Assembly (NCBI RefSeq): GCF_036067295.1 | Contig: NZ_CP107954.1 | Span: forward strand, 2,108,001-2,172,000 | Origin: Kribbella sp. NBC_00382 | Lineage (GTDB): Bacteria > Actinomycetota > Actinomycetes > Propionibacteriales > Kribbellaceae | Direction of reading: 5' to 3' | DNA: 64,000 bases | In this document: piece by piece, positions 52,733 through 61,597 of the stretch | How the letters are laid out: each line of letters starts with the position of its first letter | Position numbering within the stretch: position 1 is the first letter of the stretch | Position numbers and translations under genes: made by a program | Notes under the pieces: model-generated | Databases searched by the model: none | What the model was told of the DNA's origin: nothing | The model's input: only the letters and a program-made list of their open reading frames with translations

Positions 52733-53277
52733 TGGTTGGCGCAGCACTTGATTTGGTGCTCCACCTCGAAGGGGATGAGTACTCCGCCGACAGCCGGCTG
52801 GACCAGGAGGACTACCTGGCCTTTGCGGCGGATGGGGCGGATGAAGTCGCGGGTGTCGACCAGAGTCGTGTCCTCGACGGGTAGGCCGCCGATGGCTTCC
52901 ACCTGGTCGATACCGCACATCGCTACGAGCTCTGCTGCGGTCAGGGTGCCGTGGGCGTTCTCCTGGCCGGGGAACCTGACCAGGCGTCCCGCAGTACCGA
53001 GTGCTGTTTCCACTGCGGCCACGTAGGCGCCGCGGACTAGTTGGCTCGGGCCTGCGACCTCCGGCTCGGCTGCACCCGCGTGGATGACGGCTGAGCCTAC
53101 GTCCTGGGTCAGGGCCGCTTGATCAAAGCCAGACGTGCTGATGGAGACAGCCAAGTGGCCGCCTGGCACCACGTGGGTGCAGGCGACCACTGAGCCTGTC
53201 GCGGACTCCAGCAGGCGGTGGAGGACGTGTTCGGCCTCCACGGTGTCTGCGGAGTCCGCATCGACGGCGATGATCAC
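52729..53277 (-). CDS. Uncharacterised protein (182 aa) coupled to the PHP-domain gene
   Basis: I do not recognise this family. It starts with GTG at 53275-53277, overlapping the stop of the PHP-domain gene by 4 bases. The sequence alternates beta strands and helices (VIIAVDADSADTVEAEHVLH, VVACTHVVPGGHLAVSIS) and ends with IPFEVEHQIKCCANH, whose Cys-Cys-His cluster might bind a metal. No signal peptide. Its end overlaps the helicase stop by 4 bases on the opposite strand. A role together with the exported phosphoesterase is possible from linkage only. Confidence 0.72.
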   Translation of the reverse strand: MIIAVDADSADTVEAEHVLHRLLESATGSVVACTHVVPGGHLAVSISTSGFDQAALTQDVGSAVIHAGAAEPEVAGPSQLVRGAYVAAVETALGTAGRLVRFPGQENAHGTLTAAELVAMCGIDQVEAIGGLPVEDTTLVDTRDFIRPIRRKGQVVLLVQPAVGGVLIPFEVEHQIKCCANH

Positions 53278-55049
53278 TTTGTCGGAAGCACCCAGATCGG
53301 GTTCGTGTAGAACCACAGGTCCGCCCACGGGTCAGCGTCGCCGACCACGTCGAGCTGCGGACCCTTCGGGTCGATCGCGGCGCCGAGGAAGCCGGCCTGG
53401 CTGCGGTTGCCGTCCGTACCGCGGACGCGCACGTAGAACGGGTTCTCCGGGTCCGCCTTGCCGAGCGGCAGGACGAGCTCGAAGGTGCCGCGCTTGCCCG
53501 AGGTGTCCCACTGCTTGACGACCTTGGTGTCCGGCGCCGTGAAGGTGTCCTTGTCGCTGACCGCGCCCTTCACCGCACCCACGATCGCGTCGACGCGGTT
53601 GAGCGACGGCACGAAGTTGGCCCAGTTCGGCACGTTCTGCGCGGTGATCCGGATGACGAGTTCGACCGCGCGGCCCGGGCGGACGTGCAGCGCGCCACCG
53701 AGCGGCTCGCCGTGCGTCTTGCCGGTCTCGCGGACCTCCATGTCGATCGCCTTGACCAGCGCGCCGTGGTCGACCCAGACCCGGCCGTTGCGCAGGCCCT
53801 CCATCACCGCGCGGTAGTCGCGGTTGTCGGCGCCGACGTGCGTACGGCTGTAGTAGCCCGGGAAGAAGTCGGCAGCGGTGCGGTTGACCGTGCCACTGTA
53901 GACCGGGTCCATGTAGCGGCCGTCGCGGTCGAACTGCGCCTGGTCCGAGCCGTCGGGGCGACGGGAGGTCTCGTTCCAGTTCACGTGCGAGTCGGAGTTG
54001 GCGCTGATCCACCACGGCTTGCCCTCGGCGAGCAGGCTGTCCCAGAGGCCGCCGACCGTGGCGGTCATCCAGTCGAAGCCACCCCAGGTCCGGTATGACT
54101 CCGGCGGGAAGCCCGGGAAGGAGTTCGCGCTCGGGGCGTTGCCGTAGAGGCCACGGGCGCCACCTACGCCGACCCCGACGGGCAGACCGCCGGCCTGGTG
54201 ACCGGGCGCGCCTTCGAAACCGACGGCGATCCGCGGGTCGGCGTCGCGCCAGTTGCGGATCTCGTGCGGGCTGTCGATGCCGTTGCGGGCGGGGTGGTTC
54301 GCCAGGAACAACGCGTCGGCGACCCGGCGCTGGTCGACCTGCTGGCCGAGCCAGTGGATGCCGTCGAGGGCGAGCTGCTCGTTGGCCGGTGTGTTGGCGC
54401 CCGCGTTCTTCACGCTGCCGTCGTAGCTGTTCTCGAACTGCTTCAGTACCTCGACCTCACGGCTACCCGGAGCGACGAAGACGGTGCCGTGCTCGGCGGC
54501 CGGGATGTTCCACTCCAGCCCCTGGAAGATCAGCGTGTTCTTCAGCTCGGCCCGGGCCGCCTTGATCTGCGGGTTGACCAGGTCGACGCCGATCCGGGCG
54601 TGGGTCGCTCCACCGTGGTCGGTGATGACCAGCCAGTCAAGGCCGTTCGCGGCCGCGTGGTGCGCCTGGTCGATCACCCGGTACATGCCATCCGAGCTCA
54701 GCTGGGTGTGGATGTGGTGGTCGCCGGCCAGCCAGACGTTCGGCCGGCCACCGGAGGTGAACACGTGCGAGGTCGGCGAGGTCGCGGCGGCGAACTCGGC
54801 ACCCGAGACGGCCAGCGCGGCGGCGCCCCCGAGGATCCCGGCCGAGCGGAGCAACCCACGACGCGACAACTCGGTCGGCGACAGGTCGGTGTCCGGAATC
54901 GACTCGTCCAGCGCCGCGCTGGTGGCGGCGTCCAGCTCGGTGTTCGGGTGGTGATGGTCGTGATCATGACCATGCCCATGACCGTGCCCGTGCTCATGGC
55001 TGTGATCGTGACCATGACCGTGGCCGGTGTGGTCGTGGGAGTGTCCCAT
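53274..55049 (-). CDS. Tat-exported PHP-domain phosphoesterase with histidine-rich head
   Basis: A 591-aa protein. The first 34 residues contain 17 His (for example HDHSHEHGHGHGHGHDHD). A twin-arginine signal follows at residues 62-85: SRRGLLRSAGILGGAAALAV with AxA-like cleavage. The PHP-like domain begins WLAGDHHIHTQLSSDG and includes LDWLVITDHGG, both with metal-ligand His. The C-terminal part is a beta-sandwich (WANFVPSLNRVDAIVG; YTNPIWVLPTK). ATG at 55047-55049 after AGAGGA. The His stretch lies on the part removed or left in the cytoplasm at cleavage, so it may act in metal loading before folded export. Confidence 0.88.
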   Translation of the reverse strand: MGHSHDHTGHGHGHDHSHEHGHGHGHGHDHDHHHPNTELDAATSAALDESIPDTDLSPTELSRRGLLRSAGILGGAAALAVSGAEFAAATSPTSHVFTSGGRPNVWLAGDHHIHTQLSSDGMYRVIDQAHHAAANGLDWLVITDHGGATHARIGVDLVNPQIKAARAELKNTLIFQGLEWNIPAAEHGTVFVAPGSREVEVLKQFENSYDGSVKNAGANTPANEQLALDGIHWLGQQVDQRRVADALFLANHPARNGIDSPHEIRNWRDADPRIAVGFEGAPGHQAGGLPVGVGVGGARGLYGNAPSANSFPGFPPESYRTWGGFDWMTATVGGLWDSLLAEGKPWWISANSDSHVNWNETSRRPDGSDQAQFDRDGRYMDPVYSGTVNRTAADFFPGYYSRTHVGADNRDYRAVMEGLRNGRVWVDHGALVKAIDMEVRETGKTHGEPLGGALHVRPGRAVELVIRITAQNVPNWANFVPSLNRVDAIVGAVKGAVSDKDTFTAPDTKVVKQWDTSGKRGTFELVLPLGKADPENPFYVRVRGTDGNRSQAGFLGAAIDPKGPQLDVVGDADPWADLWFYTNPIWVLPTK

Positions 55050-55218
55050 TCGTGCGTCCTCTCGGATGACGGAATCCGGCCGGATCATCGCCGTCCTTCA
55101 TGACATCCAGATGTTGTCCACATGAACCCCTGCCGCCGGTACTTGCCCCGAAACCCCTTGCTTTGCGACGATGTCGCATTTGCGGCTGTGCCCGTGCCGG
55201 CTGTTACGGTGAGGCCCA

Positions 55219-58141: not shown

Positions 58142-58693
58142 GTGACCATCGAAGACGCTGGGACCAAGGCCCTGGCAGTTCCCGACCGGGTCGTTTCACC
58201 GACCGGGATCGCCACCGTCCAGACCGAACACCTGATCGGCGACATCAGCGACGCGCTCCGCCTGCTGGACGCCGTCGAACGAGTCCGCGGCCACGCCCAC
58301 CCGCTGATCCTCGGCCTGCAGGACGCCATCGGGATCAAGATGCCGGCCGCGCTCGTGCTCAGCGCGATCTCCAATGGCCGCGACTCCGCCGAGTCCGTCG
58401 CCGCCCAGGTCGGCACCACGACAGGCGAGGCCGAGCTGGCCATCGCCGAGCTCGCCGCCCTCGGACTGGTCCGTACTTCGCCGGTCCTGATGGTGACCGG
58501 GATGGGCCAGGCCCGGCTGTCCCAGCTCGACGGCCTGACCGTCCGCGTCCTCGACGTGGTCACCGGCATCCTCGGCCCGGCCGACGCTGCCCAGTTGATC
58601 CGCCTCCTGCACACCGTCGCCGACGGCCTCGAGTCAGCCGCGATCACCGCCACCGTCTCCGACCAGCTCCCACCGACGATCCTCCACAACTAG
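58142..58693 (+). CDS. Winged-helix (MarR-like) regulator-type protein (183 aa)
   Basis: A 183-aa protein with a central winged-helix-like unit (SAESVAAQVGTTTGEAELAI, AELAALGLVRTSPVLMVTGM, GQARLSQLDGL), preceded and followed by helices. It resembles MarR-type regulators without a strong match. Starts with GTG. It overlaps the DUF3152 gene by 4 bases at its end (convergent). The 265 bases upstream, 57877-58141, contain no gene that I can support. Confidence 0.65.
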   Translation: MTIEDAGTKALAVPDRVVSPTGIATVQTEHLIGDISDALRLLDAVERVRGHAHPLILGLQDAIGIKMPAALVLSAISNGRDSAESVAAQVGTTTGEAELAIAELAALGLVRTSPVLMVTGMGQARLSQLDGLTVRVLDVVTGILGPADAAQLIRLLHTVADGLESAAITATVSDQLPPTILHN

Positions 58694-59565
58694 TTGCTGG
58701 GCGTCGGGTCGTCGTACTTGCCCAGCTGGCCCTCGTAGCGGCGGCCGTTCCGATACGGCCAGGCGTACGCCGTACAGCCGTGCAGGCCTAGCGTCTGCTG
58801 CTGCATCACGGGAGCCGGCTGGCCTGCGCCTGGGCACAGCTCATGCGCATTGCCGAGGCGATGGCCGGTCTCGTGGTTGATCATGTACTGCCGGTACGCC
58901 GTGAGGCTCGCCCCGTAGTTCGGTACTCCCCTGGCCCAGCGCGCCACGTTGAGCACGACCCGCTCGCCGATCCGGCAACTCGTGTACTGGTCGAAGCCGC
59001 CGCCGCAGTACGTGTCCCGAGTCGCGGGCGTGACGAGCATCAGCTTGAAGTCAGCCGCCTGCCCGGGACCGACCTGGCGGAACCGGTACTTCCCTGCGGA
59101 GGCCCAACCTTCCGGAGCGCCGTAGGTCTCGCGGACGAAGCTCGCGAACGCCGCCGGGTCGACACCCTTGATGCCACCCTCGATAGCGATCTGGAAAGTG
59201 TAGACCTTGCCCGACCGGCCGATCGTCGCCGGGTCGCCCGGCAAAGTCGTGAACTCGACCGTGCCGCGTACTGGATAGGTGATCCCCGGATCCCCTTGCC
59301 CAGGCGCCGCATTGGACTCCGGAGACCCCGGTACTACGGGAGTCCCCGACTCGGCCGGCTGGCCGGACTCGTTGGGCTGGCCGGGCTTGGCGGGCTTGCC
59401 TGAGGCGGCGAACTTCGGGGCGGACTTCGCGGAGTGGGTCGACGTCTGGGCTACTGGTCGCGCTGGGTGATCCTGGCGGGAGAACGGGCTGGCCGGCAGT
59501 TGGAGCAGCGCCACGACCGCGACCGCCCCAACGATCCCCAGGGCGGCGATCCTCGTCTTGCGCAT
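58690..59565 (-). CDS. DUF3152 family secreted zincin-like protein
   Basis: A 291-aa protein. The N-terminus is a signal anchor (AALGIVGAVAVVALLQLPAS) followed by a Pro/Gly/Ser linker to about residue 95 (KPGQPNESGQPAESG). The DUF3152 domain has a zincin-type motif INHETGHRLGNAHELC (HExGHxxGxxH), and conserved Cys pairs (CGGGF..C; HGC). It probably acts at the cell surface as a peptidase. ATG at 59563-59565 follows GAGGAGC. The 16-bp palindrome at 59688-59703 lies between it and the divergent deiminase gene. Confidence 0.88.
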   Translation of the reverse strand: MRKTRIAALGIVGAVAVVALLQLPASPFSRQDHPARPVAQTSTHSAKSAPKFAASGKPAKPGQPNESGQPAESGTPVVPGSPESNAAPGQGDPGITYPVRGTVEFTTLPGDPATIGRSGKVYTFQIAIEGGIKGVDPAAFASFVRETYGAPEGWASAGKYRFRQVGPGQAADFKLMLVTPATRDTYCGGGFDQYTSCRIGERVVLNVARWARGVPNYGASLTAYRQYMINHETGHRLGNAHELCPGAGQPAPVMQQQTLGLHGCTAYAWPYRNGRRYEGQLGKYDDPTPSN

Positions 59566-59687
59566 CAACAGCTCCTCACCCCGCGCTCTGGTTGAGCGCG
59601 TCCTCACCCAGTACTTGCCTGATCGGCCGAAACCCCTTCTCGGCCGTCGGCCGCAGCCCGTTGCTCACTCGCCCTCCTCCCCTGGGT

Positions 59688-59744
59688 GGAGATCCGGATC
59701 TCCGCCTGCCTGATTCCGCACGACCGTGTTAGTTTCGTGGAAAC
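59688..59744. promoter_or_regulatory. Palindromes between DUF3152 and arginine deiminase genes
   Basis: A perfect 16-bp palindrome GGAGATCCGGATCTCC (59688-59703) and a shorter dyad GTTTCGTGGAAAC (59732-59744), in the gap between divergent starts at 59565 and 59774. Both are plausible operator sites for a shared regulator; none is encoded next to them. Confidence 0.5.
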
Positions 59745-59773
59745 AATACGGACGTGCGAATACAGGGAGTGAG

Positions 59774-61597
59774 ATGAAGCGCTGGACCACGAGCCTCGTC
59801 GTCATGACGCTGGCGCTCAGTTCAAGCCCCGTGATGCTCGCCTGGGGCACCACCTCGGCGTCGTCGGGAGCCGGGCTGACTGCGGATGTGAACCGGGATG
59901 GACGACTGACTGCGGCCGATGAAGCCGGAGAGGATCGGTGGACCGGCGGCCGCGGTGCGATCTTCCTGCCGAATCTCGATGATGACGAGCGCCGCTGCAC
60001 CGTCGATCCAGCCGAGCTGGACAAGGCCGGCGCCGAGGTCGATCAGAAGCTTGCCGCTTGCAACGATGCCGCCGACGACCGGATCAACGGCCGGGGCGAC
60101 GCGGCCGACCTGGCGCCGCTCAGGGTCGATGCCCAGGGCAACGTAAGCAACCAGGCCGGCGGGCGGCTCAGCGTAGTACCGGCTGATAAGGCGCGGGTGT
60201 TCGTTGATGGGAAGGCGGTCGAGACGCTGACGGCTGAGCAGTTGCGGCACGGAGTACGGGTTGGGTTGGAAGGGCGGGATGTGGTTCGGGATCCGGCCAA
60301 GTGGGACGGTCAGGTGTCCGTCACGTTGACCGTGGCCGATCGCGGGCGGACGAGTAGCGATGTGGTGAGGCTGAGGGTTGCGCCTTTGATGTTGCAGAAC
60401 GATTTGCAGCGGGCGGAGACGGTACTGGCCGCCAAGCCGAACCAGGGGCCGGGCTGGCCGGGTGGGCAGGCGCCTTATCCGGAAGGTGTTCCGAGCGAGT
60501 GGGAGCCGTTCGCGAACACCCTTGGCAAGGCGACGCGTTCGACCGGGGCGAAGCTGAGGTTCGTCCAGGGGACCGCGGACGGCTGGAAGGATCTCTGGTT
60601 GCAGGACACCTTCGAACCGGCTACGGCCAGCATGCCGGCGATCGGTGGCAGCCAGACGATGCGGATCCTGATCCGCTCGGGCAACGTGTGGGAGCTCCCC
60701 GGCGCGGACGGCAAGCCGATCGCAACGCCGCGGCCGGCCGGGCGGTTGATCTACCGCGATCTGCGCGGTCCGGATGTCGGGGTCGTGCAGGAGTTGAGCC
60801 CGGTCGCGTCGAGCGGGCTCAACGACCTGCTCAACATGGGCGGCAACATCGAGTCGCTTCCGCCGTACGCCGGGTATCCGCAGGGCCGGATCGTTTATGG
60901 ATCGGGCTCAAGGCATCCCGATCCGGCGTTCATCACAATGGTGACGAGCCAGGGGTATCAACCGCCGGTCGTGATCGACACGTCCTGGCTGATGGTCGGG
61001 CACGCGGACGAGACGACGCACGTCGTACGGGCCGACAACGCTCGAGGGTGGACGCTTGCCGTTGCCGATCCGCGGTTGGCGGTCGAGTTGCTGCGGGAGG
61101 CGCAGCACAAGGGGGCGGGCGGGGCGCGGCTCTTCGCGGACACTCATTCGGCATCGAAGCCGACAGCCGATCAGGTCCTTGCTGATGGCAACTGGCTGGC
61201 GGACAACGAGGCTGCTGCGGGGCACATCGATGACCAGCTGGAGATTTTGCTCAAGGCAACTGGTTTGCGGTCGAGCGAGCTGGTCCGATTGCCGGTGCTG
61301 TTCGAGAAGCAGAAGGACTTCGGGTTGTTGCGGGCGGTCACTCCTGGGTTGGTCAACGGCTTGTCGCTGACCGCGCGGGACTTCGCAGTACCGGATCCGC
61401 ACGGTCCCAACGTCAACGGTCGCGACCTCTTCCGGCAGGCGACGGAACGGGCGCTTGGGCGCAACGGCGTACAGGTGCACTGGGTCGAAGACTTCTTCTG
61501 GGCCCACCTGGCCGGCGGCGAAGTCCACTGCGCCACCAACGCCCTCCGCGACACCCACTCCACCAACACCTGGTGGAAGTCAGCGGACGACCTTTAG
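59774..61597 (+). CDS. Secreted protein-arginine deiminase (PAD)
   Basis: A 607-aa exported enzyme. The signal peptide is residues 1-27 (LVVMTLALSSSPVMLAWG). Residues 34-80 look like EF-hand/dockerin calcium loops (DVNRDGRLTAADEAGED; NLDDDERRC). The catalytic part has the PAD triad: Asp in WLQDTFEP (about 275), His and Asp in MVGHADETTH (about 407), and Cys in GGEVHCATNALRD (about 585). ATG at 59774-59776 follows AGGGAGTGAG. PADs turn peptidyl-arginine into citrulline with Ca2+. Bacterial PADs of this multi-domain type are rare. Its end overlaps the GNAT gene by 18 bases. Confidence 0.88.
   Translation: MKRWTTSLVVMTLALSSSPVMLAWGTTSASSGAGLTADVNRDGRLTAADEAGEDRWTGGRGAIFLPNLDDDERRCTVDPAELDKAGAEVDQKLAACNDAADDRINGRGDAADLAPLRVDAQGNVSNQAGGRLSVVPADKARVFVDGKAVETLTAEQLRHGVRVGLEGRDVVRDPAKWDGQVSVTLTVADRGRTSSDVVRLRVAPLMLQNDLQRAETVLAAKPNQGPGWPGGQAPYPEGVPSEWEPFANTLGKATRSTGAKLRFVQGTADGWKDLWLQDTFEPATASMPAIGGSQTMRILIRSGNVWELPGADGKPIATPRPAGRLIYRDLRGPDVGVVQELSPVASSGLNDLLNMGGNIESLPPYAGYPQGRIVYGSGSRHPDPAFITMVTSQGYQPPVVIDTSWLMVGHADETTHVVRADNARGWTLAVADPRLAVELLREAQHKGAGGARLFADTHSASKPTADQVLADGNWLADNEAAAGHIDDQLEILLKATGLRSSELVRLPVLFEKQKDFGLLRAVTPGLVNGLSLTARDFAVPDPHGPNVNGRDLFRQATERALGRNGVQVHWVEDFFWAHLAGGEVHCATNALRDTHSTNTWWKSADDL

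Follow-up and report, generated by a model that had tools for sequence, protein, structure and literature searches.

Peptidylarginine deiminases (PADs) belong to a guanidine-modifying superfamily that also contains enzymes for small substrates, and to our knowledge hardly anything has been established about what PADs do in bacteria, a single natural-product case being the exception. Porphyromonas gingivalis PPAD is a secreted bacterial peptide deiminase that is calcium-independent, and the citrulassin PAD of Streptomyces is reportedly the protein WP_064069847.1 of Harris et al. in 2020. In the available text of two reports, a remote Streptomyces PAD converts Arg9 to citrulline in the lasso peptide citrulassin (PMC9266682, PMC12971885). 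According to the accessible part of Cummings et al. 2021 (PMC8826395), PPAD forms a separate family, phyletically distinct from the PADIs, and the origin of citrullination in animals is placed in bacterial PADs. The same part of that source (PMC8826395) describes an actinobacterial/fungal PADI type, said to be marked by a triple-histidine linker and by loss of the calcium-switch aspartate; this residue is reported as kept only in animal and late cyanobacterial enzymes, with glycine in actinobacteria and fungi, and the actinobacterial panel consisted of six sequences. No paper on any Kribbella PAD was found in a literature search that took in few subscription papers.

The window (the whole stretch of 64,000 nucleotides from Kribbella sp. 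NBC_00382 analysed here, whose positions are used below) contains a gene that sequence and structure models assign to the vertebrate-type peptidylarginine deiminases (PADI), with a predicted activity. Its main parts are as follows:

59774..61597, forward strand: PAD coding sequence P0001, 607 aa (open frame, Pfam, phmmer, structure model)
59864..60391, forward strand: PAD_M middle domain, residues 31-206 (own fold model, Foldseek, VIA)
60350..61579, forward strand: PAD_C catalytic domain (PF03068), residues 193-602 (Pfam)

The frame runs from the ATG at 59774 to the stop codon at 61595-61597. The upstream GTG at 59726 is a less likely start, since a ribosome site, GGGAG at 59765-59769, lies ahead of the ATG and the relatives likewise start with MKRW/MRRW. 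Chance is excluded as the source of this frame, and the dN/dS values of 0.18-0.25 obtained in six comparisons with intact relatives indicate purifying selection.

PF03068 covered residues 193-602 over almost its whole length (profile positions 2-395 of 395, E 3.4e-71), and the best solved relative was human PAD4 (phmmer, E 2.1e-36), which was also found with a profile of 35 homologues (E 5.4e-69, profile positions 34-614). The vertebrate-like type proposed by a previous reading of this DNA, made from the sequence only, is supported by these matches. Moreover, a grouping with agmatine deiminases was not observed: at E up to 10, Pfam gave only PAD, PAD_M, a dockerin and Big_9 for this protein, and no agmatine- or arginine-deiminase family. 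The AlphaFold2 model of the full-length protein (mean pLDDT 86.9, pTM 0.86; structure alignment without L052, L053, L054 and L056, the last one having a long insertion) had PAD4 8r8u as its top Foldseek match (E 3.7e-44), and VIA-align placed residues 31-605 on PAD4 113-663 (Z 48.0, 2.2 A, 503 aligned residues with 29% identity). Since the model fits PAD4 113-663, PAD_N, a feature of the animal/late-cyanobacterial clade Ai, is missing; the chain begins after the signal at about PAD4 113 and its architecture is PAD_M plus PAD_C.

The middle domain was weak by sequence. Pfam detected PAD_M with an E of 0.028 in the whole protein and 0.0016 in the segment alone, below the 24.8-bit cut-off, and at E up to 1 in 12 of 31 homologues; the N-terminus alone retrieved no PAD by phmmer, and as a profile it did so weakly (E 0.4). 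Residues 31-206 were therefore folded separately (pLDDT 85.9). This model (m70df6d2eaa47) matched PAD3 in Foldseek (E 5.0e-8) and its best VIA alignment was to PAD2 116-298 (Z 16.4, 151 aligned); the 50 matches listed per structure search were all PAD structures or PAD6-containing complexes or lattices. The PAD_M assignment thus rests on the modelled fold, the sequence score being below the Pfam cut-off.

The residues expected to carry catalysis and to bind calcium are located as follows:

60605..60607, forward strand: D278, catalytic, on PAD4 D350 (alignment to PAD4)
61001..61003, forward strand: H410, catalytic, on PAD4 H471 (alignment to PAD4)
61007..61009, forward strand: D412, catalytic, on PAD4 D473 (alignment to PAD4)
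61529..61531, forward strand: C586, nucleophile, on PAD4 C645 (alignment to PAD4)
59885..59920, forward strand: EF-hand-like DxNxDG loop D38-D49, on the Ca6 loop of PAD2 (PAD2 row DADRDG; residue offset 85; conservation)
59972..60109, forward strand: Ca3-Ca5 loop N67-D112, with N67, D69, D71, D98, D101, D109 and D112 on PAD4 N153, D155, D157, D165, D168, D176 and D179
60773..60775, forward strand: D334, putative calcium-switch aspartate, kept, on PAD4 D388 / PAD2 D389 (alignment to PAD4)

Equivalences were taken from the alignment to PAD4 and ligand roles from the available text of PMC5445078 and PMC3559651, the latter for Ca3-Ca5 of PAD4. The four catalytic residues are all present and in the expected order, as had been claimed, and by analogy with the human PADs they would have the same roles. 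The catalytic D, H, D and C and W347 were found in 69/69 exported homologues and R374 in 68/69. The W347, V469 and R374 positions (PAD4 numbering) are kept in the window PAD, R320 being an unsure equivalent of R374 because the 369-374 stretch was aligned across a large gap.

Regarding calcium, the Ca1 ligands Q349, E353 and E411 of PAD4 are kept as Q277, E281 and E360, and the Ca2 ligands E351, D369 and N373 are lost, being T279, R301 and P319 in the window PAD. In PAD4, the triple mutant of these three Ca2 residues lost most of its activity, as given in the available text of PMC5445078. The D98-D112 spacing is identical to that of PAD4 D165-D179, E166 of the Ca3-Ca5 ligand set is also kept, and PAD4 E170 is replaced by R103. 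In the first loop (D38-V-N-R-D-G-...-D49), D38, N40 and D42 fall on PAD2 123, 125 and 127 (Ca6) with an offset of 85, and N40 agrees with the D125-to-N change in the Ca6 loop that the accessible part of Cummings et al. reports (PMC8826395). The sequence-only reading was right in placing calcium loops before the catalytic domain, but these do not form an EF-hand unit: they are the predicted calcium loops of PAD_M, as the domain folded alone indicates (Z 16.4 to PAD2). The switch aspartate was aligned without gaps, RGPD(V/I)G(V/I)V standing on MGPDFGYV, and the window PAD is probably calcium-activated.

The N-terminal part carries three further features:

59774..59863, forward strand: residues 1-30, predicted N-terminal export signal (hydrophobic at 5-15 after a basic start, without a lipobox cysteine)
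59996..59998, forward strand: Cys75, first of an invariant pair (69/69 exported homologues)
60059..60061, forward strand: Cys96, second of the invariant pair (69/69 exported homologues)

Export, also proposed earlier, is very probable: as judged by eye and by hydrophobicity, the short basic start is followed at residues 5-15 by the most hydrophobic 11-residue stretch of the protein, and residues 1-30 have a pLDDT under 50. As a predicted exported peptide deiminase of a bacterium, the window PAD resembles PPAD of P. gingivalis. The C75/C96 pair is absent from PAD4 and from the signal-less paralogue L003, and exactly three cysteines per protein were counted in 62/69 exported homologues. The three-cysteine content and the invariant pair suit export; a C75-C96 disulfide is probable, and in these sequences the pair is a mark of the exported PAD form.

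Compared with human PAD4/PAD2, the window PAD shares the middle and catalytic domains, the four catalytic residues, the Ca1 and Ca3-Ca5 ligands and the switch aspartate, whereas it lacks PAD_N and the Ca2 ligands and has a predicted export signal and a calcium-loop insertion with the cysteine pair. With the actinobacterial/fungal type it has in common, as far as the accessible text of Cummings et al. 2021 describes that type (PMC8826395), a divergent PAD_M plus PAD_C, no PAD_N, the Ca2 loss, the D125-to-N change in the Ca6 loop and an extra conserved region in Ca3-5. By contrast with that description (PMC8826395), its linker is LQN instead of a triple histidine and its switch aspartate is kept instead of being a glycine.

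These two differences extend beyond the window. A tree of 71 sequences (actinobacteria and human PAD4 only, quick SH-aLRT), whose deep order is not trustworthy given the branches of 3 or more leading to L003 and PAD4, resolved four clades of exported actinobacterial PADs, with an SH-aLRT of 100 for II, III and IV and 99 for I. Clade counts are given without L040 and L041 (shortened), L013 (internal deletion) and broken fragments, and with L003 apart. Clade I contains 32 Streptomyces sequences with an HHH or QHH linker; clade II, five Kribbella sequences including a second PAD of the window genome; clade III, to which the window PAD belongs, 23 sequences from Kribbella, Actinophytocola, Embleya and some Streptomyces; and clade IV, nine sequences. 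The triple histidine of the PAD_M-PAD_C linker, absent from the window PAD, was not found among the clade III linkers listed (18/23 members). The Asp equivalent to D388 is present in 23/32 members of clade I, 5/5 of II, 20/23 of III and 7/9 of IV, 55/69 in total, the remaining sequences having Gly (12) or Asn (2); the actinobacterial type can thus not be defined by loss of the switch. Presumably, two of the six sequences in the published actinobacterial panel bear proteobacterial genus names.

Two side observations were made on the relatives. In the clade IV PADs (L034, L029, L045, L046, L053, L056, L088, L093 and L094) the catalytic residues are intact, and the Ca1 ligand E411 is replaced in 9/9 and E353 in 6/9; perhaps these enzymes are calcium-independent at the active site. 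In L012 (Kribbella sp. ALI-6-A) the post-signal segment is repeated (HAGLRADLRPDGRAG), giving a longer N-terminus.

The supposed scarcity of such PADs in bacteria did not hold. At E 0.001, PF03068 matched in 18/38 Kribbella, 21/245 genomes of the order, 12/394 genomes of the class (own genome included) and 50/295 Streptomyces (30 best places plus seven weaker ones were taken as loci from these 50), and the window genome, G000, has three PADs. The window PAD is therefore an ordinary member of a known, under-studied family and is not rare. The second PAD of this genome (L058:8076-10004, forward strand; G000 C1:1976075-1978003) is an exported 642-aa protein that falls in clade II and lacks the DxNxDG loop. 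The third (L059:8590-11175, forward strand; G000 C1:6928589-6931174; 862 aa) is highly divergent, keeps the catalytic residues and has no signal peptide; a search of 295 further genomes of the class at E 1e-30 gave no relative. A 995-aa frame (L059:5599-8586, forward strand), without a match in Pfam, PHROGs or PADLOC, ends three bases ahead of it, and by eye the adjoining genes resemble those for proteasome subunits, Pup and Dop. A phage or viral origin of the PAD was discarded, no match being found in phages or viral contigs, as were a defence or phage family (none in padloc, one weak match in phrogs) and plasmid carriage, for which four records were retrieved at E 1e-5 (Streptomyces three, Embleya one) and one further match, at chance level, at E up to 10.

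The position of the gene is marked by its neighbour:

58690..59607, reverse strand: divergent neighbour, secreted DUF3152 protein (open frame, Pfam), marker of the site

This protein, of unknown function in Pfam, contains HETGHRLGNAH, which by eye fits the HExxHxxGxxH motif of metzincin proteases. A close copy occurs in 36/38 Kribbella with or without a PAD, so by co-occurrence it was ruled out as a partner. The clade III PAD is intact in 13/38 Kribbella and broken or absent in 25/38, and is thus dispensable; it is broken in six (G003, G006, G018, G020, G021 and G028), and in L013 the frame is kept and the D350 region is lost. In 16 genomes without a PF03068 match (G002, G011, G022 and G036 were left out of this survey), the same site held a remnant in one (G021) and none in 15, and after the loss the DUF3152-GNAT gap often measures about 70-120 bases (e.g., G005, G012, G034 and G035). 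Given these losses, the PAD is a passenger gene that has often dropped out of its single chromosomal site. Elsewhere in the window, a PHP-domain protein (53274-55088, reverse strand) has a long N-terminal His/Gly/Asp stretch (HDHTGHGHGHDH...), possibly a metal-loading leader, followed by a twin-arginine-like signal, LSRRGLLRS.

Conserved inverted repeats occupy the 166 bp gap between the DUF3152 and PAD genes, and related sites were found at a distant gene:

59685..59706, no strand assigned: second conserved inverted repeat, GGTGGA-N9/10-TCC(A/G)CC (only match in the window, in the TCCGCC form)
59715..59732, forward strand: predicted operator copy 1, 59 bp upstream of the PAD ATG (top score among 127,966 window positions)
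59743..59760, reverse strand: predicted operator copy 2, inverted (third best of 127,966 window positions)
L128:5035-5643 (G000 C1:1619034-1619642): conserved Kribbella BetI-type TetR gene with the operator at its own promoter

A model, R1, built from 12 PAD leaders (L021 was left out of the alignment and the model), was searched over 38 Kribbella genomes. It returned 15 places linked to a PAD, with E from 1.4e-19 to 2.5e-9, training leaders or genomes with the same genes included, and further weak matches, many of them at one place that the coordinates put some 0.45-0.6 Mb off. In eight such distant places the site sits immediately upstream of a TetR gene (MPKIVDH...), which was called in seven of them and is visible by its start alone in the eighth; this gene is BetI-type (TetR_C_6, E 5.2e-23) and divergent from that of a 2TM-domain membrane protein. 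As an independent check, an operator matrix was derived exclusively from the sites at the eight TetR promoters; the ranks listed above were obtained with it over both strands of the window. Among 12 relatives, the best matrix match fell no more than 70 bp upstream of the PAD in 11 (weakly, 8.9, in L009) and the second best did so in L010. At the 16 loci without a PF03068 match no score exceeded 8.5, apart from those of G019 (16.0) and G031 (12.9), whose matches fall outside the DUF3152-GNAT gap. The operator copy at the window PAD differs from the pattern TTDVYACNNNYGTGTTA at two positions. With one mismatch allowed, the matches listed for this pattern in the window genome are the TetR site and two further places, the PAD site not being among them. 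As the pattern counts over 38 genomes were similar to those of a reversed-pattern control, the pattern alone is no proof, and the evidence is the recurrence at the same two promoters.

An RNA hairpin was also considered for the PAD promoter, the repeats remaining paired although both partners are changed in four pairs. It was rejected, because the repeats consist of one near-palindromic site present twice in inverted orientation, a site also found at the TetR promoter; this explains the covariation resembling RNA pairing and makes a DNA operator the better reading. No match to a sigma-70-type promoter, a terminator or an Rfam family was obtained. The second inverted repeat stands upstream of 8/13 intact Kribbella clade III genes (L021 counted as a miss) and in 2 of the 20 loci whose PAD is missing or broken; both of these retain remains of a PAD. 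Expression of the PAD is probably tied to the TetR repressor. What is new here is clade III without the "actinobacterial" His3 motif, the widespread switch aspartate and a predicted operator shared with a TetR promoter.

The explanation that we favor, with a probability of roughly 0.78, is an exported, calcium-shaped and TetR-repressed PAD whose likeliest substrates are extracellular peptides or proteins that contain arginine. The chain would exit through its N-terminal signal and fold outside, where calcium is plentiful; calcium on the middle-domain loops (Ca3, Ca4, Ca5 and Ca6-type) and on Ca1 would shape the active site, and since the Ca2 site is gone, activation should need fewer ions. D278 and D412 would hold the arginine while C586 attacks the guanidinium with the assistance of H410, ammonia would leave and peptidyl-citrulline would be released, the C75-C96 disulfide presumably clamping the long calcium-loop insertion of the actinobacterial enzymes. 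Transcription would be held down by the genus-wide TetR/BetI-type repressor, which would also occupy its own promoter, so that the enzyme should appear once the repressor meets its ligand.

Among the alternatives, it is possible, at clearly lower odds, that the enzyme acts on envelope or secreted proteins of its own producer, or frees ammonia from peptides, and is not directed against outsiders. The neighborhood gives no hint of an outside target and a secreted metzincin-like protein is encoded next door, but that neighbor occurs regardless of the PAD, and the patchy presence of the PAD fits an accessory trait better than housekeeping. A dedicated role in tailoring a ribosomal peptide natural product, as for the Streptomyces citrulassin PAD, is unlikely. 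Both enzymes are actinobacterial members of one family (WP_064069847.1 was compared by description), and the known PAD is encoded away from its peptide cluster in the available text of PMC9266682 and PMC12971885. However, the lasso B-protein family PF13471, searched in this genome and in a set of 50 genomes and covering lasso peptides as the sole RiPP class, had no match in the window genome and gave no support to the link: it occurred in 4/18 Kribbella with a PAD match vs. 2/20 without. It is a weak marker, being present in only 3/12 other PAD genomes; its absence here favors action on outside peptides or proteins. In addition, the main Streptomyces clade has an HHH/QHH linker that is missing from the clade of the window PAD, the HHH clade being where the citrulassin PAD would fall.

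Two further readings seem very improbable. Free arginine, agmatine or other small guanidines might be the substrate, as for other enzymes of the superfamily, but Pfam at E up to 10 gave PAD and no small-substrate family, and the protein has the full two-domain PAD body with the W347, V469 and R374 positions kept. A catalytically dead or decaying relic would be in line with the six broken copies at the same site among 38 Kribbella and with the loss of the D350 region in L013; the window copy, by contrast, is intact, with all catalytic residues and the low dN/dS to its six intact relatives.

Going beyond the exported, TetR-repressed enzyme favored above, a more specific and rather doubtful proposal is inducible extracellular citrullination. 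An accessory PAD at one fixed chromosomal site would have come under the operator of the genus-wide BetI-type repressor, whose conserved sites otherwise lie at the promoter of its own gene. It would be released by an outside chemical cue, and the calcium-activated enzyme would strip positive charge from the arginine-rich antimicrobial peptides of competitors; calcium would report the compartment rather than act as a signal, and the switch aspartate, regarded as restricted to animal and cyanobacterial enzymes, would be ancestral as well as widespread. The counts of this aspartate correct a published character used for dividing the PAD family, and with a predicted repressor and operator at hand, the inducer, and hence the context in which this PAD is used, can be found.
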